Source: Acholeplasmataceae bacterium (GTDB lineage: Bacteria; Bacillota_I; Bacilli_A; ML615J-28; CAG-313). Taken from it: a stretch of DNA of 49,797 nucleotides. The notes under the pieces were generated by a model, which did no database searches, was not told the DNA's origin, and saw only the letters and a list, made by a program, of their open reading frames with translations. The position numbers were made by a program, and so were the translations under genes. The DNA lies in the NCBI GenBank assembly GCA_012838945.1, contig DUOG01000049.1:1-49797 (forward strand), read 5' to 3'. Of the stretch, positions 16,872-45,039 are shown in pieces (within the stretch, counting starts at the first letter, position 1; the number at the start of each line of letters is the position of its first letter).

Positions 16872-16899
16872 ATTATAACCTTTATTTTTAAAATGTCAA
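16872..16899 (-). promoter_or_regulatory. SigA-type promoter of the MATE gene
   Basis: On the minus strand TTGACA (16899-16894), 16-nt spacer, TATAAT (16877-16872). Confidence 0.75.
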
Positions 16900-18236: not shown

Positions 18237-18454
18237 TTTTGCACCATTTGAAATAAAAATTTAATTACAGTATTTTTCTTTTAAGTAGAACTATAGTAAT
18301 TGAAAAAATAATATATGATTATAATGAGGTGAAAAGAAGTCGCTGTTTAATAAAATATGACAAATTTTAAGGTAAATCAGAAGTTTATTTACTATTTTGC
18401 CTTATTTTTTGACAAAATATAGTATAATAAATAATATATTAAGGAGCAATGATA

Positions 18455-19051
18455 ATGTCGATTGTATATAAAATATGCCCTGACTGTGGCTCTCATGACG
18501 TAATTGATATTGTATATGGTCGTTTATCAAACGGCTTAAAGAAACTCGTAGAAGATGGGAAAGCCATTTTTGGGGGAGAGACTGGTTATTACTTTAATGA
18601 AGAAGGTAAATTAATCAATCTTCCCATCTATCATTGTCAAAACTGTTCATCTAAGTGGGACCGAGAAGACAGTTTAGCAATTGCCTATCAAAAAATTAAA
18701 AAGATCATTATTAAATGTAACACACCTAATAATGAGATTTTTATTGATATCAACATAAGTAATCGTGAAGTTTTCTATGAGCAGATTTACAATAATCAAA
18801 TCTTAAAAAAAGATTTTAAAAAGGTAAGTGTTGAAGCTATTGAAAAGTATCTTTCAATGTTACAATTTGTTGATCTTTTATATTGGAAGCCTCTTTATGA
18901 AGCGGAAAGTATTCACAATAATCAATGGACAATGACCATTGTGAAGGAAAAAAGTAGAGTTTATAAAAGTGGTATTAATGCCTATCCTTCTAACTGGAAT
19001 GCTTTTTGGGGTGTTACTTGCGAACTGTTGAGTACAACTATTGATTTTTAA
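18455..19051 (+). CDS. Unknown protein with N-terminal split zinc ribbon
   Basis: 198 aa, not recognised. It begins MSIVYKICPDCGSHDV (Cys8, Cys11) and has a second pair HCQNC (Cys61, Cys64), so the two halves of a zinc ribbon are separated by ~50 residues containing GETGYYFNEEGK. The remainder (65-198) is an alpha/beta domain with several tryptophans near the C-terminus (WKPLYEAE, WTMTIV, WNAFWG). No signal peptide or membrane segment. ATG 18455 is chosen over 18449 because AAGGAG is eight bases before it. A TATAAT at 18423 lies upstream, but the perfect TTGACA at 18409 is only eight bases from it, so the promoter is ambiguous. Confidence 0.7.
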   Translation: MSIVYKICPDCGSHDVIDIVYGRLSNGLKKLVEDGKAIFGGETGYYFNEEGKLINLPIYHCQNCSSKWDREDSLAIAYQKIKKIIIKCNTPNNEIFIDINISNREVFYEQIYNNQILKKDFKKVSVEAIEKYLSMLQFVDLLYWKPLYEAESIHNNQWTMTIVKEKSRVYKSGINAYPSNWNAFWGVTCELLSTTIDF

Positions 19052-19093
19052 AAAACTCTAGAATCTTTAGTTATAAATTTTGGATTTTATCCA

Positions 19094-19099
19094 TATAAT
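19094..19099 (+). promoter_or_regulatory. -10 box upstream of the candidate leader RNA
   Basis: TATAAT at 19094-19099 would start transcription at about 19105, the first bases of the P1 stem of the leader. No convincing -35 box 16-18 nt upstream. Confidence 0.4.
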
Positions 19100-19103
19100 A
19101 AAT

Positions 19104-19212
19104 TGAAGATTGATGAGGCTTAAATGATTGACATGAAAAGCCGAGCTGTATAGACATAATTGGATCAAGATTCAATCTTCAGTAAGGCTGTGAGTTTCAC
19201 AGCCTTAACTTA
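19104..19212 (+). ncRNA. Candidate structured leader RNA (riboswitch-like) upstream of ogt
   Basis: A 10-bp perfect stem TGAAGATTGA (19104-19113) / TCAATCTTCA (19172-19181) closes a 58-nt region that contains a GGCTT (19117) / AAGCC (19138) hairpin and a purine-rich single-stranded part. It is followed at once by a perfect 10-bp hairpin AAGGCTGTGA-GTT-TCACAGCCTT (19184-19206) and a short T-rich tract before the ogt ribosome site. AGCC at 19139 could pair with GGCT at 19187, giving an alternative fold. The layout (start, closed domain, terminator-like hairpin, gene) is that of a transcription-attenuation riboswitch, but it matches no class I recognise. Confidence 0.5.
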
Positions 19213-19231
19213 TTTTAAAGGGAGAAAGTAA

Positions 19232-19699
19232 ATGGCTGTTTCATTATATGATAGTCCTCTAGGACCAATTTATATCTATGAAGAAAATGGATTCATCACG
19301 AAACTACTTTTTAATGAAAAGATTAATGATGAAGTTTTAAATGAATCACCCCTAACGATAAAGGCAAAAGAACAACTAGATTTGTATTTCAAGGGTGAGT
19401 TAAAGGAATTTAATCTTCCACTTTCCCCAAAGGGTACCCCTTTTAGAAAGAAAGTTTGGCAAGCCCTTTTAAATATTCCCTATGGAAAAACAGCTAGTTA
19501 TCTAGATATTGCGAGAGCAATCGGAAATGAAAAAGCCTGTCGGGCAGTTGGACAAGCCAATGGTTTTAATCCAATTCCGATTATCATCCCTTGCCATCGC
19601 ATTATTAATTCCAATGGGAAACTTGGTGGTTATTCTGGGGGATTAGAATTAAAAGTTCAATTACTTGAACATGAAAAGATACACTATTCAAAGAAATAA
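19232..19699 (+). CDS. ogt: Methylated-DNA-[protein]-cysteine S-methyltransferase
   Basis: 155-aa suicide DNA-repair protein that moves the methyl group from O6-methylguanine to its own cysteine. Seen: the active-site IIPCHRII near residue 123, the DNA-binding HTH around GTPFRKKVWQALLNIPYGKTASYLDIA, RAVGQANGFNPIPI, and the C-terminal GGYSGGLELKVQLLEHE. Length is that of a stand-alone Ogt. Preceded by the structured leader and followed 18 nt later by an iron alcohol dehydrogenase gene. Confidence 0.94.
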   Translation: MAVSLYDSPLGPIYIYEENGFITKLLFNEKINDEVLNESPLTIKAKEQLDLYFKGELKEFNLPLSPKGTPFRKKVWQALLNIPYGKTASYLDIARAIGNEKACRAVGQANGFNPIPIIIPCHRIINSNGKLGGYSGGLELKVQLLEHEKIHYSKK

Positions 19700-19717: not shown

Positions 19718-20890
19718 ATGAATACATTTATCTATAATACACCAACTAAAGTATTTTTGGGACCTGACACTGAAAAAGAAGTTGGTAAAATAATAAAAGA
19801 GTATGGTTATAAAAAAGTATTACTCCACTATGGTGGTGGTTCAATCAAAAAGACAGGTCTTTATGACCGGGTTGTCAAATCTTTAGAAGAAGCAGGACTG
19901 GACTTTGTGGAGATGGGAGGCGTTAGTCCCAATCCTAAAGTATCATTAGTTCGGGAAACAGTTGCCTTATGCCAGAAAGAAAAAGTAGATTTAATTTTGG
20001 CTGTAGGCGGTGGGTCGGTAATCGATTCAGCAAAAGCAGTCGGTGTCTCAGCAATTTCCAACATTGATCCATGGGAATTTAGTATGGGACGGGTTAAACC
20101 AACTCAAACTATTCCAGTTGGGGTAATCTTGACTATTTCCGCATCAGGAAGCGAAATGAGTGATTCTTGTGTGCTGACTGATGAAGAAACAATGATTAAA
20201 AAAGGGTTTAATACCGATGTGATTAGACCACTATTTGCGATTATGAATCCAATGTTAACTTATTCAGTATCGCCATATCAAACAGCATGTGGGACTACTG
20301 ATATAATGATGCATACTTTTGAGAGATACTTCACTCATGATCAAGGATTTGAAATCACCGATAATATATCATTAGCACTATTAAAAACCGTTTATCAAGC
20401 TGGAAAGGTAGTAATGAAAAATCCTAATGATTATAATGCACGGGCTAACCTAATGTGGGCAAGCAGCTTATCTCACAACGGTTTAACCGGTGTTGGTCGA
20501 AACTATAAGATGGTTGTTCATGCTTTGGGGCATGCGGTTAGTGGAACATATGATTTTGTTCATCATGCGGCTGGATTATCAATTTTATTTCCTGCCTGGG
20601 CGAAACTTGCCTATCATTCTGCGGTAGATAAGTTTGCTGAGGTGGCCTATCAAGTATTAGAAGTAGACCGTTCAATTGCTCCAAAAGAAGCAGCCTTGCT
20701 CGGGATTGAACGATTAGAAAACTATTTTAAAGAATTAGGAATGCCAACACGTTTCAGTGATTTAGGAATTGGCACTGATCAATTCGAATTAATGGCTAAT
20801 AAATACTCTAATAATGGTCAAAATGCCATTACCACAATTATAACGGTTGATAAAGCTAAAGCTTTAGAAATATTTAATCTTGCGAAATAA
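19718..20890 (+). CDS. Iron-containing alcohol dehydrogenase (butanol dehydrogenase-like)
   Basis: 390-aa NAD(P)H-dependent enzyme interconverting aldehydes and alcohols, of the YugJ/BdhA subgroup. Seen: NTPTKVFLGPDTE at the N-terminus, cofactor loop GGGSVIDSAKAVG near residue 95, and iron ligands in GTTDIMMHTFERYFT (Asp, His) and VVHALGHAVSGTYDFVHHAAG (His x2). Full length. Second gene of the ogt unit. Likely a redox-balancing step in fermentation; the true substrate cannot be told. Confidence 0.92.
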   Translation: MNTFIYNTPTKVFLGPDTEKEVGKIIKEYGYKKVLLHYGGGSIKKTGLYDRVVKSLEEAGLDFVEMGGVSPNPKVSLVRETVALCQKEKVDLILAVGGGSVIDSAKAVGVSAISNIDPWEFSMGRVKPTQTIPVGVILTISASGSEMSDSCVLTDEETMIKKGFNTDVIRPLFAIMNPMLTYSVSPYQTACGTTDIMMHTFERYFTHDQGFEITDNISLALLKTVYQAGKVVMKNPNDYNARANLMWASSLSHNGLTGVGRNYKMVVHALGHAVSGTYDFVHHAAGLSILFPAWAKLAYHSAVDKFAEVAYQVLEVDRSIAPKEAALLGIERLENYFKELGMPTRFSDLGIGTDQFELMANKYSNNGQNAITTIITVDKAKALEIFNLAK

Positions 20891-20901
20891 AGGTGGATAG
20901 G

Positions 20902-21288
20902 ATGAAAGAGTTTGATTTTGAAGATGATGGTAAACTTAGGGTAGTAGTCTTTTTAGGACATAAGTATTTAAAAAGTGCTCCAAAAGATGTGGAAAAAGTA
21001 ATAATTGAATATCGCGGTCCTGCTCTTGATGTCATCTCTCAACTTAGTGTTCATTGTAATGAAGTTGAAGGTAATGTGGAAGCAGGAACGTCGGTCCACT
21101 GTGATGCAGTGGGTGGCGATGTAACTGCGGGTACAAGTGTTAATTGTGATTCAGTAGGTGGCAATGTCAGCGCAGGTACAAACGTTAGTTGTGATGATGT
21201 TAAGGGATCGGTTACTGCTGGAACTAGTGTAACCGCATCTAAGATAACAGGCAATGTCACAGCACTAAAGGTTATTGTTAAGGGTTAA
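20902..21288 (+). CDS. Small Cys-ladder beta-solenoid repeat protein
   Basis: 128 aa. The N-terminal ~45 residues form an acidic lead-in, then five tandem units of about 15 residues follow the pattern V-x-C-x-x-V-x-G-x-V-x-A-G-T-x, beginning at VHCNEVEGNVEAGTS. The cysteine recurs at the same place in four consecutive units and is replaced in the last (VTASKITGNVTAL). Such 15-residue repeats suggest a small right-handed beta-solenoid (polymer-forming/bactofilin-like), which would stack four thiols on one face. Start ATG 20902 follows AAAGGTGG; it is 11 nt after the alcohol dehydrogenase. No signal peptide. Function unknown. Confidence 0.72.
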   Translation: MKEFDFEDDGKLRVVVFLGHKYLKSAPKDVEKVIIEYRGPALDVISQLSVHCNEVEGNVEAGTSVHCDAVGGDVTAGTSVNCDSVGGNVSAGTNVSCDDVKGSVTAGTSVTASKITGNVTALKVIVKG

Positions 21289-21313
21289 TATTTCAATATA
21301 TTAACCTTTTTTT
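21281..21313 (+). terminator. Intrinsic terminator overlapping the repeat-protein stop
   Basis: AGGGTTAATA / TATTAACCTT stem with an 8-nt loop, followed by seven Ts; the stop codon is inside the 5' arm. Confidence 0.82.
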
Positions 21314-21332
21314 CGCTTTAATAAAAGGTTAA

Positions 21333-21341
21333 TGATATAAT
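21333..21341 (+). promoter_or_regulatory. Extended -10 promoter of sbcDC
   Basis: TGATATAAT at 21333-21341 is an extended -10 (TGnTATAAT); the -35 region is poor, as such promoters allow. Confidence 0.5.
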
Positions 21342-21370
21342 AAAAAGTAAGAAACAAGGGAGATGAGAAT

Positions 21371-22534
21371 ATGAAAATTTTACATTCTGCTGATTGGCAT
21401 TTGGGGAGAACAATCAATGGATTTAGCCTAATTGAATTACAAAAAGATATGGTTAATCAAATCATTGATATAATAAAATCTGAAAATATTGATACAGTTG
21501 TTTTAGCTGGCGATATCTATGACCGGGCTATTCCGGGAGTAGAAGCTACCCAAATATTAGACTTCTTTTTAACTGAAGTCGCCCTAAATTTAAAAAAACA
21601 AATAATTATGGTTTCTGGTAACCACGATAGTTATGAACGTTTAGGCTTCGGCAATGAGTTGTTCCGTAAGGTTGGTATTCACTATGCTAAAACTGCTCTT
21701 CAGCCGATTGAAAAGATAATCATTGAAGATAATAATGGCCCTATAAATTTTTATCTGTGGCCTTATCAAAGTTCCTTTTTCTTAAAAGAAAAATATCCCG
21801 ATCAGAAATTTGCTTCATACAATGATGCTTTTAAATACTTGCTGGGTTTGAATCTAATAAACTATGATGAACGTAATTGTTTCGTGGGCCACAGTTATTA
21901 TACTTATGGGATGCAAAAAGATTTGGTTGAATCTGATTCAGAACGTCAACTATCGGTTGGTGGTGCTGACTTTCTTGATGTGAAATTATTAAAGGGATTT
22001 GATATAGCTATGTTTGGGCATCTTCATGGTCCCCAAAAGGTCGGACCTGAACTATTTCGATATGCTGGTTCACCCCTAAAATACTCTTTTTCGGAAGTGA
22101 ATCATCAAAAGAGTGTGGTAATTTATGATTTTATTGAAAAAGGAAAGATAACATACAAAATAGTCCCTATCAAACCTTTATATGATATGAAAACGGTCAA
22201 AGGATATTTAAAGGATATCGTTAATAATGGAGTTGAAGGGGTCGGTCAATATGATCTCATTCAATTGATTCTCATTGATGAGGAAAGAGTTTATGAACCG
22301 ATGGCTTCAGTGCGAACTCGTTATCCCAATGTCCTTGAATTAAGATATGAAGAAAAGAAAGAAGATCTTGAATTTAATCTTGGTGATCCTCAATCTGAGT
22401 CAAAGGATATCATTGAATTGTTCTCAGAGTTTTATGAAAAAATAAACAATCGTAGTATCAATGATGAAGAACTGAACATCATCAAAGATGTTTATCAAAA
22501 AGTATTGGAGGGCGAAAATCATGAGAATAATTAA
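21371..22534 (+). CDS. sbcD: Exonuclease SbcCD subunit D
   Basis: 387-aa Mre11-type metallophosphoesterase. With SbcC it cuts DNA hairpins and processes broken or protein-blocked ends. Motifs: HSADWHLGR at the start, LAGDIYDRA near residue 55, SGNHDSYER near residue 85, GHSYY and FGHLHGPQ near residue 220, giving the full set of metal ligands. The C-terminal part holds the capping and SbcC-binding regions. Overlaps sbcC by 14 nt. Confidence 0.94.
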   Translation: MKILHSADWHLGRTINGFSLIELQKDMVNQIIDIIKSENIDTVVLAGDIYDRAIPGVEATQILDFFLTEVALNLKKQIIMVSGNHDSYERLGFGNELFRKVGIHYAKTALQPIEKIIIEDNNGPINFYLWPYQSSFFLKEKYPDQKFASYNDAFKYLLGLNLINYDERNCFVGHSYYTYGMQKDLVESDSERQLSVGGADFLDVKLLKGFDIAMFGHLHGPQKVGPELFRYAGSPLKYSFSEVNHQKSVVIYDFIEKGKITYKIVPIKPLYDMKTVKGYLKDIVNNGVEGVGQYDLIQLILIDEERVYEPMASVRTRYPNVLELRYEEKKEDLEFNLGDPQSESKDIIELFSEFYEKINNRSINDEELNIIKDVYQKVLEGENHENN

Positions 22535-25500
22535 TTTAGAATTTTTCGCTTTTGGTCCCTATCCCGGCAAAGTCGAGATTGATTTTGTTCCAATCAATGA
22601 ACGTCAGTTATTTTTGATTACTGGACCAACCGGTAGTGGTAAGACAACTATCTTTGATGCAATTGCCTTTGCTTTATTTTCGCAACCATCGGGTAATTAC
22701 CGTGATCGAATGGGTCACCGGAGTCATTTATGTAAGACGGATGAAAAAACCTATGTTAAACTTGCTTTTGAATTAAATGATAATCGCTATCAAATAATCC
22801 GTTTTCCCCAACAAGAAATAATGGATCGAAACGGGAAACTAGTTACAAAATATAGCGAAGCTTATTTAACATTACCAGATGGCACTATTATTGAAGGTGT
22901 TCGTAGGGTAGATGAAGAACTTTCATCAATATTAAAACTAAACGCAAGCCAGTTTAAACGGATAGTTATGTTGGCTCAAGGAGAGTTTCGTGAACTATTA
23001 TTTGCGAGTAGTCAAGAACGAGAAGAAATATTTCGGGTCATCTTTGGCACAGATGATTTAAAGCGTTTCACGGACATCTTAAATGAAGAATTAAAAAAAG
23101 TTCAAAAAGAAAAGGAACGAATCTGTCAAAAGATTGACCTTACCGTAGATGGTTTGAATCTTAATGAACCAAAGGGACATCTTCCTTTTGAGGCTATCGC
23201 CACAATGGAGGGAAATGATCCGCTTCTTAATCATTTAGAAAAAGAGATTGAACAAACTAATAACCAAGTTGAAGATCTTGATAAAAATATATTTGAAATA
23301 AATGATTTAATCACAAAAACTAATGTTGAAAAAGAAAAAGCTAGGGAAGATAATAAAGATTTAGCTGAACTAAAAGATTACCGTAATGAACTTTCTAGAT
23401 TAAACCAAATGGAATCTGAGATAAAGAATGATGAAATATTAATAAAAAAATTAGACAATATTCCATATATTGAAACTTTTGAAAATGCTTATAAATCACA
23501 ACTTGAAGTAATCCAAAAACTAGGTCAAGATTATGAAAAGAATCAAAAAGAAATAGAGACTAATGAAAATAGTTTAAACAAAAAGGAAAAAGAGAAATTG
23601 GAGATTATTGAGGAATTAAATAGTATTAAGAAAGAATGGGAAGAAAAGAACCTATCCACGCATGAAAAAAATATCAATCAGTATTTTGAATATGATCAAA
23701 ATCTCCAAGAATTTGAAAAATCAAAAAAAGATTTAAAAGAATTAGTTGAAAATTATGAAGAAAAAAATAAAGAAAAACTAGACAAAGAAAAATTGTTGGA
23801 TGCAAAAGAAGAAAAAAAACAAGAATATCTTAAAGATATTAATCAAAAAATTACCATTTTAGAAGAAAAAGTTAGATGTGAAAAATTAATAGATAAACTA
23901 AATGAGTTCTTAAAAAGCATTCAATCTTTAACTAAAAAAGAACAAGAGATTAAAGCATTAGATAAAGAAGTTATTATTGAGGAAATAAAGTATCATGAAC
24001 TAAATAGAGATTTAGCAGAGATGGAACTGAAATATAGCTTATATCAAGCCGGTGCTTTAGCAGCTGATTTAAAACCAGGTGAACCATGTCCTGTTTGTGG
24101 TTCAACCGAACACCCACAGCTTGCTATTATATCTGAAGAAGTGTCAAAAGAAAAAATAGAGATTCAAAAAGAAATAGCTAAGAAGCAATCTGAAAAATAC
24201 AATGAAATAAAAGCCAAATTAAATACAGAAAAATTAAATAAAGAGAGTCTAAACCAAAAAATCTCAGATGAAAAAGCAAAACTGGATTTAGATATTGAGG
24301 GTGAAGAAGCAGTAGCAGAATTGATTAATCAAACTAACATCAATCTTAATTCTTTAACTGAAAAGTATAATAATATATTAGAAAAAGAGAAAGAATTAAA
24401 AATAATCGAAGAAAATATTAAAGATCTTCAAAAAGATATTGAGACAATAAAAGACGAGTTGCAAACAATAAATAATAATAAAATCAGCAAAAAAACAACC
24501 TTGGATAATCTATTAACACGAATAGAAAAGGTTAGAGGAGTACTTCCAAAATACTATGTAAATGCTACTATTTTAAAAGAACTTATTGAGAATCTTAATA
24601 GTAACAAAATCATAAAAGAACAACGTATGCAAGACCTAAATGAAGAGACTACAGGATTAAAAGCCACTATAAAACAAGGAAAAATTAGTTTAGCAAAAGA
24701 TAGGGAAAACCTCCAAAATCAAAAAGAAGAATTAACCAAAAAAGAAAATAAACTTAAAGAAGAAATATTGAAAATCTTTGATAGTGCAGAAGAATATGAA
24801 ACGGCTAAAAAGAATAAAGACTCCAAGGAAGATTTGGTTAAAAAGGTAGATGAGTACTATAAAAATATTAGAAAAATAACTTCAGACATTGAAACTTTAG
24901 AAAAAAGAACTAAAGGAAAAGAAGTTGTTGATTTGAAAGTTTTTGATGAAAAGATTGAGGTTTATTCAAAAAATCTAGAAGAAGTAAATAAAAAACGGGA
25001 TGAACTATGGGTAAAATTAAATAATAATAGAGAAGGTTTAAAAAACCTGAAGAAGTTATATAAGGATTTTTTAAAGATCAATAATCACTTTGTGATGATT
25101 AATAATTTAGATGATTTAGCTCGAGGCCAAAATGAATATCGAATCAGTTTTGAACGATATATTTTAGCTAGTTATTTTGATAATATCTTAAAAAGCGCAA
25201 ATATCAAACTAAAAGAAATGACGGGAATGCGCTATCAATTTGAAAAGCGTGAAGGGAAGGCTAAAGGACGAGCTCAACAAGGATTGGACATCAATATATT
25301 TGATAATTATACAGGCAGAGAACGTGATGTTAAGACCTTATCAGGTGGTGAGTTGTTCAAAGCCTCACTTGCTTTAGCTTTGGGACTTTCTGATGTTATC
25401 CAACAAAATGCTGGTGGAATTAGTATAAATACCATATTTATCGATGAGGGCTTTGGTTCACTTGATTCGGAATCTTTAGACAGTGCCCTTCAAACTTTAA

Positions 25501-25631
25501 CCGATATTCAATCCAAAGGAAAGATTATCGGTATCATATCCCATGTCCAAGAAGTTAAAGATCGATTAAGTACAAAAATTATGATTGGAACTTCCAAATC
25601 AGGAAGTTACATCGACAAGATAACCATTTAG
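22521..25631 (+). CDS. sbcC: Exonuclease SbcCD subunit C
   Basis: 1036-aa Rad50/SMC-type ATPase partner of SbcD. Walker A GPTGSGKTT near residue 36; Q-loop region with VMLAQGEFRELL; two long Lys/Glu-rich coiled coils on either side of the zinc hook PCPVCGSTEHP near residue 523; signature TLSGGELFKASLALALGLSD and Walker B TIFIDEGFGSLD at the C-terminus. Start ATG 22521 follows GGAGGG inside the end of sbcD. Length is typical for the family. Confidence 0.95.
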   Translation: MRIINLEFFAFGPYPGKVEIDFVPINERQLFLITGPTGSGKTTIFDAIAFALFSQPSGNYRDRMGHRSHLCKTDEKTYVKLAFELNDNRYQIIRFPQQEIMDRNGKLVTKYSEAYLTLPDGTIIEGVRRVDEELSSILKLNASQFKRIVMLAQGEFRELLFASSQEREEIFRVIFGTDDLKRFTDILNEELKKVQKEKERICQKIDLTVDGLNLNEPKGHLPFEAIATMEGNDPLLNHLEKEIEQTNNQVEDLDKNIFEINDLITKTNVEKEKAREDNKDLAELKDYRNELSRLNQMESEIKNDEILIKKLDNIPYIETFENAYKSQLEVIQKLGQDYEKNQKEIETNENSLNKKEKEKLEIIEELNSIKKEWEEKNLSTHEKNINQYFEYDQNLQEFEKSKKDLKELVENYEEKNKEKLDKEKLLDAKEEKKQEYLKDINQKITILEEKVRCEKLIDKLNEFLKSIQSLTKKEQEIKALDKEVIIEEIKYHELNRDLAEMELKYSLYQAGALAADLKPGEPCPVCGSTEHPQLAIISEEVSKEKIEIQKEIAKKQSEKYNEIKAKLNTEKLNKESLNQKISDEKAKLDLDIEGEEAVAELINQTNINLNSLTEKYNNILEKEKELKIIEENIKDLQKDIETIKDELQTINNNKISKKTTLDNLLTRIEKVRGVLPKYYVNATILKELIENLNSNKIIKEQRMQDLNEETTGLKATIKQGKISLAKDRENLQNQKEELTKKENKLKEEILKIFDSAEEYETAKKNKDSKEDLVKKVDEYYKNIRKITSDIETLEKRTKGKEVVDLKVFDEKIEVYSKNLEEVNKKRDELWVKLNNNREGLKNLKKLYKDFLKINNHFVMINNLDDLARGQNEYRISFERYILASYFDNILKSANIKLKEMTGMRYQFEKREGKAKGRAQQGLDINIFDNYTGRERDVKTLSGGELFKASLALALGLSDVIQQNAGGISINTIFIDEGFGSLDSESLDSALQTLTDIQSKGKIIGIISHVQEVKDRLSTKIMIGTSKSGSYIDKITI

Positions 25632-33318: not shown

Positions 33319-33343
33319 AACACTTGACACCACAAAAAGTGTT
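33319..33343 (+). promoter_or_regulatory. Inverted repeat over the -35 region
   Basis: AACACTT (33319) and AAGTGTT (33337), perfect 7-bp arms 11 nt apart, overlapping the -35 box of the strong promoter at 33324. A candidate second repressor site. Confidence 0.4.
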
Positions 33344-33352
33344 GTGTATAAT
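33324..33352 (+). promoter_or_regulatory. Full-consensus SigA promoter divergent from the XRE gene
   Basis: TTGACA at 33324-33329, 17-nt spacer, TATAAT at 33347-33352: a 12/12 match at ideal spacing. It drives the short transcript ending near 33468. Confidence 0.85.
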
Positions 33353-40961: not shown

Positions 40962-41102
40962 ATGGAAAAGCCAACACCGCCGGACAAGCGTAGTTTCTTA
41001 GTTCATAAAGGTGAACTAACAGAGCTAGAACGCGAAAAATTCCGTGAACATTTAAAACAAAATTATGGAATTAAAGTAAGGCGTGGCAAGACATTGGAAT
41101 AA
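40962..41102 (+). CDS. Small hypothetical protein (46 aa)
   Basis: A short ORF with a GGAAGGTGATG ribosome site just before ATG 40962, ending at a TAA followed by a strong terminator. The product is charged, helical and soluble: MEKPTPPDKRSF at the start and ELTELEREKFREHLK in the middle, ending in a basic VRRGKTLE. It is the last gene of the yqeG-rsfS unit, 34 nt after rsfS. No family recognised; the position, ribosome site and codon pattern make it a real gene candidate. Confidence 0.6.
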   Translation: MEKPTPPDKRSFLVHKGELTELEREKFREHLKQNYGIKVRRGKTLE

Positions 41103-41117
41103 CCGTTCCCAAATGAG

Positions 41118-41146
41118 AAGCGTTGACAAAAGGTCAACGCTTTTTC
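41118..41146 (+). terminator. Terminator of the yqeG operon
   Basis: AGCGTTGAC/GTCAACGCT perfect 9-bp stem with 5-nt loop, followed by TTTT. Confidence 0.9.
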
Positions 41147-41156
41147 TCAAAAAGTT

Positions 41157-41187
41157 TGTCACATTATAGGCGTTAACACATATAATA
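41157..41187 (+). promoter_or_regulatory. ylmC promoter; SigA and SigK/SigE-like readings overlap
   Basis: TTGTCA at 41157-41162, 18-nt spacer, TATAAT at 41181-41186 is a good SigA promoter. The same place contains CATATAATA at 41179-41187, a full match to the SigK -10 form CATAnnnTA, with AC at 41161-41162 sixteen bases upstream. Confidence 0.5.
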
Positions 41188-41202
41188 TAACGAGGTGATA
41201 TT

Positions 41203-41448
41203 TTGTTATTATCCGAATTAGAATCTAAGGATATCATCAACGACCATGATGGAGCAAAAATTGGTAGAATCGTTGATGCTGAAATAGATGTAGCAACCGG
41301 AAGAATTTTAAATATTAGATTACAACTCGGATTTCGTCTTTTGAATATTTTTTCTTCAAAAGACACAGCGATCATTCCTTGGAATAAAATAATAAAAATT
41401 GGCAATGATGTGATTATCGTTGATTATCGAAATAATAATGGTGATTAA
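41203..41448 (+). CDS. ylmC: YlmC/YmxH family PRC-barrel protein
   Basis: 81-aa PRC-barrel protein (LLSELESKDIINDHDGAKIGRIVDAEID, then IPWNKIIKIGNDVIIVDY). Family members are annotated as sporulation-associated in Bacilli and Clostridia, though the exact role is not settled. TTG start at 41203 follows GAGGTG with five bases. Stand-alone gene with a promoter whose -10 also fits a sporulation sigma. Soluble and cytoplasmic. Confidence 0.85.
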   Translation: MLLSELESKDIINDHDGAKIGRIVDAEIDVATGRILNIRLQLGFRLLNIFSSKDTAIIPWNKIIKIGNDVIIVDYRNNNGD

Positions 41449-41450
41449 TG

Positions 41451-41474
41451 AAAAAAGGCAGTAGTGCCTTTTTG
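41451..41474 (+). terminator. Terminator after ylmC
   Basis: AAAAAGGCA-GTAG-TGCCTTTTT hairpin. Confidence 0.85.
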
Positions 41475-41559: not shown

Positions 41560-42936
41560 ATGAGTAATTTGAAATTTAAATCTTCATTAGATCCTAACTT
41601 TCAACCATTAATAGTTGAATTAAGAGATTTTAAGAAAAAAGTATCAGAAAACAAATCAGTACCATTCGCTATTTGTGTCGAACGTAATGATGGTTTTCGT
41701 TATCGTTATGAAATAGCTGTTTTAGAAGATCCGAAAGAACTTGAAACAAACTTTAGAATCGTCGAACGTATTGTTAAAAGTATTTTATGGGTTGTTGGTG
41801 GCTTTAAGGTTTATGTTGGTGGTTTAAAACCATTAGCCGAAAAGATTAAAGAAGCTTACACCGAAGATGGACTTCGTGCTTTTGATGCTAAATTTATGGC
41901 TCGTGTTTATGAGCGACCTTTTGAAGTAATTGTTACAGAATATGATGAGGTTCCTGAAAGTGTTCATTCATCTATTCCAGCCGGTGGACACCTTGATGGT
42001 TGCCGTATCGGTTTTGATGCTGGTGGCTCTGACCGTAAAGTAAGTGCCGTGATTGATGGCGAAGTTGTTTATAGTGAAGAAGTTGTATGGCATCCAAAAT
42101 TAAGTGAAGACCCAGAATATCAATACAATGGTATTTTAGACAGTTTCAAGAAAGCTGCTAGTAAAATGCCACGTGTTGATGCAATTGGCGTTAGTAGTGC
42201 AGGTATTTATATTAATAACCGTATAATGGTTGCTTCTTTATTCATTAAAGTACCTGAGGATGTTTTTGAAGAAAAAGTTAAAGATCTCTATATTCGTGCT
42301 GCCAAAGAAATTGGTGATGTTCCACTTCAAGTAGCAAATGACGGTGACGTTACTGCACTTGCTGGTGCCTTAGAATTAAAGGACACTAGAGTGTTAGGAA
42401 TTGCGATGGGAACAAGTGAAGCTGTAGGTTATATCAATAAAGATGGTAACTTAAATGGTTGGTTAAGTGAATTAGCATTCGTTCCAGTTGATCTAAATAA
42501 AGATGCAATGGTTGACGAATGGAGTGGTGACTATGGCTGTGGTGTTAAGTACTTTAGTCAAGATAGCGTTATTAAATTGGCCAAACCTGCTGGAATTGAA
42601 TTAGATGAAAATCTATCACCAGCTGAAAAACTTAAGGTTGTTCAAAACTTAATGGCGGAAAATGATCCGCGGGCTCGTCAAATATATGAAACTATCGGTA
42701 TATATTTAGGATATACACTACCATATTATGCTGAATTCTATGACATTAAATATGTCTTATTACTTGGAAGAGTAACTAGTGGAGAAGGCGGAAACATTAT
42801 GGTTGAAAAGGCTAAGGAAGTTCTTAAAACTGAATTCCCTGAGTTTGCTGAGATTCAATTATTAATGCCAGATGAAAAATCTCGTCGCGTCGGCCAAAGT
42901 ATTGCGGCTGCGAGCCTTCCACAAATTAAAAAATAA
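41560..42936 (+). CDS. ROK-like sugar kinase with N-terminal extension
   Basis: 458 aa. From about residue 148 it is an actin-like ATPase fold of ROK type: phosphate loop GFDAGGSDRKVSAVIDG, IGVSSAGIYINN, the catalytic VANDGDVTALAGAL near residue 265, and GIAMGTSEAVGYI. The ROK zinc motif (CxCGxxGC) is absent; instead it has GDYGCGVKYF. Residues 1-147 form an extra domain (FAICVERNDGFRYRYEIAVL, KVYVGGLKPLAEKIKEAY, RVYERPFEVIVTEYDEVPES) not usual in sugar kinases. Whether it phosphorylates a sugar or another substrate is open. Overlaps the next gene by one base. Confidence 0.75.
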   Translation: MSNLKFKSSLDPNFQPLIVELRDFKKKVSENKSVPFAICVERNDGFRYRYEIAVLEDPKELETNFRIVERIVKSILWVVGGFKVYVGGLKPLAEKIKEAYTEDGLRAFDAKFMARVYERPFEVIVTEYDEVPESVHSSIPAGGHLDGCRIGFDAGGSDRKVSAVIDGEVVYSEEVVWHPKLSEDPEYQYNGILDSFKKAASKMPRVDAIGVSSAGIYINNRIMVASLFIKVPEDVFEEKVKDLYIRAAKEIGDVPLQVANDGDVTALAGALELKDTRVLGIAMGTSEAVGYINKDGNLNGWLSELAFVPVDLNKDAMVDEWSGDYGCGVKYFSQDSVIKLAKPAGIELDENLSPAEKLKVVQNLMAENDPRARQIYETIGIYLGYTLPYYAEFYDIKYVLLLGRVTSGEGGNIMVEKAKEVLKTEFPEFAEIQLLMPDEKSRRVGQSIAAASLPQIKK

Positions 42937-44996: not shown

Positions 44997-45023
44997 TTAG
45001 CACTAAACCCTTGACAGTGCTAA
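44997..45023 (+). promoter_or_regulatory. CIRCE operator 1 (HrcA site)
   Basis: TTAGCACTA, 9 nt, CAGTGCTAA: 8 of 9 bases match in each arm of the CIRCE consensus (TTAGCACTC-N9-GAGTGCTAA). It covers the -35 box of the hrcA promoter. Confidence 0.88.
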
Positions 45024-45039
45024 TATTATATAGTATAAT
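45011..45039 (+). promoter_or_regulatory. SigA promoter of the hrcA operon
   Basis: TTGACA at 45011-45016, 17-nt spacer, TATAAT at 45034-45039: a 12/12 consensus match, expected to be very strong when HrcA is released. Confidence 0.92.

Follow-up and report, generated by a model that had tools for sequence, protein, structure and literature searches.

Bacterial 5' leaders of two described kinds come closest to the one considered here. In an intrinsic-terminator attenuator, a perfect hairpin that contains GC pairs and carries a U-rich tail lies between the promoter and the ribosome site. In a transcriptional riboswitch, a closing stem is followed by a terminator-like hairpin. Both a closing stem and such a hairpin lie ahead of ogt, the gene for O6-methylguanine-DNA methyltransferase, in an Acholeplasmataceae bacterium.

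The locus is part of a stretch of DNA of 49,797 nucleotides, which was analysed as a whole and is called the window below. An original prediction had described this leader as a riboswitch architecture controlling ogt and the alcohol dehydrogenase gene that follows. The observation is fair; the interpretation over-reaches. The best explanation, which stands about an even chance of being right, is an orphan, lineage-restricted structured 5' leader of the ogt cluster with an attenuator-like hairpin. The features are collected in Table 1.

Table 1. Features of the ogt leader and of the genes around it.
Feature	Position	Strand	Evidence or remark
Upstream ORF	18449-19051		family unknown; no Pfam or NCBIfam match
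Gap	19052-19231		between upstream ORF and ogt
Possible -10 box TATAAT	19094-19099	+	sequence; with weak TTATAA at 19071-19076, 17-nt spacer
Closing stem, 5' strand, TGAAGATTGA	19104-19113	+	perfect complement of 3' strand; in MFE and centroid folds
Internal hairpin GGCTT (19118-19122) / AAGCC (19138-19142)	19118-19142	+	MFE fold; 3-bp AUG/CAU extension
Possible 9-codon upstream ORF MIDMKSRAV	19124-19153	+	translation, no sign of use; GAGG 5 nt before ATG
Perfect -35-like TTGACA within proposed aptamer	19128-19133	+	sequence; putative
Possible -10 boxes for TTGACA	TATAGA 19149-19154 or CATAAT 19155-19160	+	putative; spacers of 15 nt and 21 nt, respectively
Closing stem, 3' strand, TCAATCTTCA	19172-19181	+	pairs with 5' strand
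Terminator-like or 5'-UTR hairpin	19183-19207	+	sequence, terminator scan; perfect 11 bp, 3-nt loop, tail ACTTATTTTA
ogt ribosome-binding site GGGAG	19220-19224	+	sequence
ogt, O6-methylguanine-DNA methyltransferase	19232-19699	+	PF01035 5.2e-36, TIGR00589 4.7e-35
Iron-containing alcohol dehydrogenase	19718-20890	+	PF00465 4.4e-45

Gene context

An 18-nt spacer separates ogt from the alcohol dehydrogenase gene, whose best NCBIfam model is PRK15138 alcohol dehydrogenase, with a score below that model's cut-off. After 3 nt there follows a 131-aa ORF (20893-21288), which is repeat-like and without a family, and then sbcD and sbcC; the cluster downstream of ogt spans 19718-25631. The unit from ogt through alcohol dehydrogenase to sbcD-sbcC may be a DNA-repair operon. 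Because the cluster runs on into sbcD-sbcC, the gene context points to DNA repair, and it fits a DNA-repair cluster at least as well as an aldehyde-sensing unit.

The genome is the sole member of its genus among those compared. The nearest Ogt proteins within the family are 52-53% identical and belong to two family members. In neither does ogt have a leader; the preceding gene ends 10 nt before its start or overlaps it by 4 nt, and alcohol dehydrogenase lies on a different contig. A wider, Ogt-based search for loci led to distant phyla, where identity was at best 64% for a partial match and 57% for matches covering most of the protein. The suggestion that the two genes would suit an aldehyde, alkylation or redox ligand is thus weak, as ogt and adh are unlinked in the nearest family members and the cluster continues to sbcD-sbcC.

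The terminator-like hairpin

The strong structural signal of the leader is the hairpin at 19183-19207. A hairpin of at least 11 bp arises in only 1 of 400 dinucleotide shuffles of the gap. Its pairing is perfect, as had been proposed, with 11 bp instead of the 10 first counted, of which five are GC pairs. It is not confirmed as a clean terminator: its tail, ACTTATTTTA, is interrupted, with T at five of the first eight positions past the stem, whereas typical terminators of the same genome run straight into TTTT. The hairpin is unique in its own genome, allowing up to three mismatches.

Its position was compared with 348 kb of the same genome, made up of the window and 15 further stretches, in which 157 gaps precede a gene. 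Where such a gap holds hairpins of at least 9 bp, these mostly begin 0-15 nt past the preceding gene, and many have a T-rich tail. In the ogt leader, the hairpin begins 131 nt past the preceding stop codon, ends 24 nt short of ogt and 12 nt ahead of its ribosome site, and is the only strong one in the 348 kb that combines a large distance from the end of the upstream gene with one of at most 45 nt to a start codon. Judged by its position, far from the upstream gene and near the ogt start, it is part of the ogt leader. Since only 24 nt remain, a promoter after the hairpin is hardly possible, and transcription of ogt must cross it.

The hairpin could instead be a late, weak terminator of the gene at 18449-19051, with the closing stem as an incidental inverted repeat and ogt transcribed by read-through or from a promoter in the gap. 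The stop codon of that gene is followed by no hairpin of at least 9 bp of its own, and the hairpin heads the list of terminator-like sites in the first 20 kb, among which it has the most G-C pairs. Chance might also supply the inverted repeat, as stems of 10 bp turn up in about 3% of shuffles of this AT-rich region. Set against this are the distance of 131 nt and the broken T-run, where most other strong hairpins lie directly behind a gene and many have clean T-runs. This account is rather doubtful.

The nearest positional parallel in the 348 kb is at 41452-41473 of the window, where 46 nt separate it from the start of an ORF on the other strand. This perfect 9-bp palindrome, AAAAAGGCAGTAGTGCCTTTTT, is followed by T-rich sequence on both strands and is perhaps a two-way terminator. 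The gap that holds it is 154 nt long, with a minus-strand ORF (41052-41405) on one side and a plus-strand gene at 41560 on the other.

The hairpin's GGCTGT (19186-19191) is repeated at the ogt start codon (19234-19239, ATGGCTGTTTCA), which is likely a coincidence. Were the hairpin opened, pairing between its 3' arm and the ogt start region would in principle be possible.

The closing stem and its contents

The two strands of the closing stem form a perfect inverted repeat, as originally reported, with 10 Watson-Crick pairs, or 12 when the U-G and A-U ends are counted. Likewise, the GGCTT/AAGCC hairpin is present inside it, and the ribosome site is found ahead of ogt. A stem of at least 10 bp with a span of up to 90 nt appears in 11 of 400 dinucleotide shuffles of the gap; two stems of at least 10 bp together appear in none of the 400. 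The fold of the whole leader has a z-score of -3.35 relative to shuffles. The part proposed as an aptamer is unremarkable when taken alone, as its fold barely beats shuffles (z = -1.8; 12 of 200 shuffles equally good).

Evidence for switching would be a pair of mutually exclusive helices, one in the aptamer and one in the expression platform. In prefix folds of the growing transcript, the internal hairpin forms first, next the closing stem and next the hairpin at 19183-19207, each being added to the earlier ones. The closing stem and this hairpin are adjacent and compatible, and coexist in the predicted folds. The best upstream competitor for the 5' arm of the hairpin, 19113-19122 with 19183-19191, reaches a probability of about 0.05-0.07, and no mutually exclusive pair was found with energy models that include neither ligand nor pseudoknots, upstream competing pairs staying at or below 0.07. 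The alternative pairing suggested between AGCC (19139) and GGCT (19186) has a probability of about 0.01. A ligand or a pseudoknot could alter the fold, yet the sequence gives no pointer to either.

Promoters and the upstream reading frame

The closing stem was thought to start right at the expected transcript start. A TATAAT is present ahead of the stem; the start itself is less secure. The TTATAA ahead of it matches the -35 consensus at three of six positions, so that this promoter falls under the scan threshold. The start is also uncertain because a perfect TTGACA sits inside the proposed aptamer. Three promoter-like sites of the window have both sigma-70 boxes perfect (16872-16899, 33324-33352 and 45011-45039; 0.29 expected by chance), and the ogt candidates are much weaker than these.

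If the TTGACA promoter is in use, the closing stem is absent from the RNA, and the inverted repeat could act, if at all, as DNA. The repeats might then be operators for a transcription factor around this promoter, with a start near 19160-19167. The perfect TTGACA between the half-sites fits such a model, as does the 10-mer TGAAGATTGA, which is confined to its two closing-stem sites in the 348 kb. The model is nonetheless unlikely. The TTGACA lacks a well-spaced -10 box, its candidates lying at 15 nt and 21 nt; the half-sites are about 68 bp apart; and the 348-kb sample holds no further copies, so no regulon.

Another model is attenuation by a leader peptide, through the 9-codon ORF inside the closing stem. 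A GAGG lies 5 nt ahead of its ATG, and ribosomes at this site would affect the fold. The ORF has no run of regulatory codons and no conservation, and there is no visible antiterminator helix that an opened closing stem would release. Leader-peptide control is accordingly most improbable.

Searches for related leaders

Searches of Rfam at the gathering threshold gave no match over the whole window, in agreement with the original remark that conserved cores of familiar riboswitch classes are not seen. At E<=10 nothing credible appeared, the top sub-threshold score being 21.8 bits against a gathering threshold of 49.9. A DNA search of the bacterium's own genome, its family, phages and plasmids returned the leader itself or short chance matches only, and a search of viral contigs with the leader pattern gave no match. 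In the titles and abstracts searched, no leader RNA of this kind was found described for ogt or alcohol dehydrogenase.

For the closing-stem domain, a covariance model was built from the single sequence and used class-wide with strict filters. It found no credible homologue in the own genome, 14 family members or 395 class genomes; a strongly diverged one could escape such a model. Applied to 87 ogt/adh loci, it gave a single match, with E = 1. The comparison of related ogt and adh upstream regions that had been proposed has thus yielded no homologous leader, and at 74 other ogt loci no perfect hairpin of at least 8 bp lies within 75 nt of the ogt start codon. With no homologue found, these searches gave no sign of selection on the leader structure.

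The best foreign match among the 395 class genomes scored 30.4 bits with an E of 5e-4 per genome, so that about 0.2 such matches are expected over the set. It lies inside a pheS-like gene and is not a credible homologue. The other matches checked are mostly within neopullulanase-like, asnS-like, GntR regulator and glycosidase-like genes (all names read from translations). Two matches outside long ORFs have scores at chance level.

These results bear directly on a new riboswitch class controlling ogt and adh. The order of promoter, stem, terminator-like hairpin and ribosome site suggests one, as does the lack of an Rfam match. Such a class is very improbable given that no alternative upstream helix exceeds a probability of about 7%, that the aptamer part is so ordinary, that neither the 395 class genomes nor any other ogt locus examined holds a homologue, and that ogt and adh were not seen linked in the family members whose ogt is nearest. 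The riboswitch reading given at the outset is not supported: the predicted folds show no mutually exclusive helices, and no homologue was found that could reveal a conserved core. Very little credence is likewise given to a lineage-specific regulatory RNA, either a riboswitch or a protein-bound leader, that would sense alkylation or aldehyde stress and control ogt, and would so far be present in one sequenced genus.

A possible mode of action

A structured ogt leader is plausible because its hairpin is improbable by chance, placed in the leader and without an Rfam match. If transcription starts near 19105, the RNA would form the long closing stem with its small internal hairpin, and then the 11-bp hairpin, followed by an imperfect U-tract and the ribosome site. 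The 11-bp hairpin would most likely act as a leaky, constitutive attenuator, that is, a partial intrinsic terminator, holding ogt expression low. The first stem would shield the 5' end or insulate the hairpin. Ligand sensing is neither needed nor indicated.

Several observations favour an attenuator leader: the stems exceed shuffles, stem and then hairpin form without competition, and the hairpin is near the ogt start. The poor U-tract, a promoter that is weak by consensus, the rival -35 box inside the structure and the lack of any homologue in the searches speak against it. If the leader does regulate ogt, it would exemplify how an uncultured bacterium controls direct alkylation repair at the RNA level. 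At present it is a structured leader of a single genome without comparative support, and chiefly illustrates how weak the evidence is when a riboswitch architecture is read by eye in one sequence.

Comparison with known systems

The ogt leader resembles transcriptional riboswitches in having a closing stem and then a terminator-like hairpin. Unlike theirs, its helices are compatible, and no conserved core, homologue or Rfam match was found for it.

The Rfam family with the best sub-threshold score, freshwater-2 (RF02980), also has a hairpin and, after it, a GGAGAAA...AUG ribosome site. The ogt leader is not a member, as it scores 21.8 bits (E 0.18), far from the gathering threshold, and aligns mainly via the hairpin and the ribosome site.

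Intrinsic-terminator attenuators differ from the ogt leader, whose U-tract is interrupted and which has no demonstrable antiterminator helix and no known sensor. What it has in common with them is a perfect, GC-containing hairpin with a U-rich tail, placed between the candidate promoter and the ribosome site.
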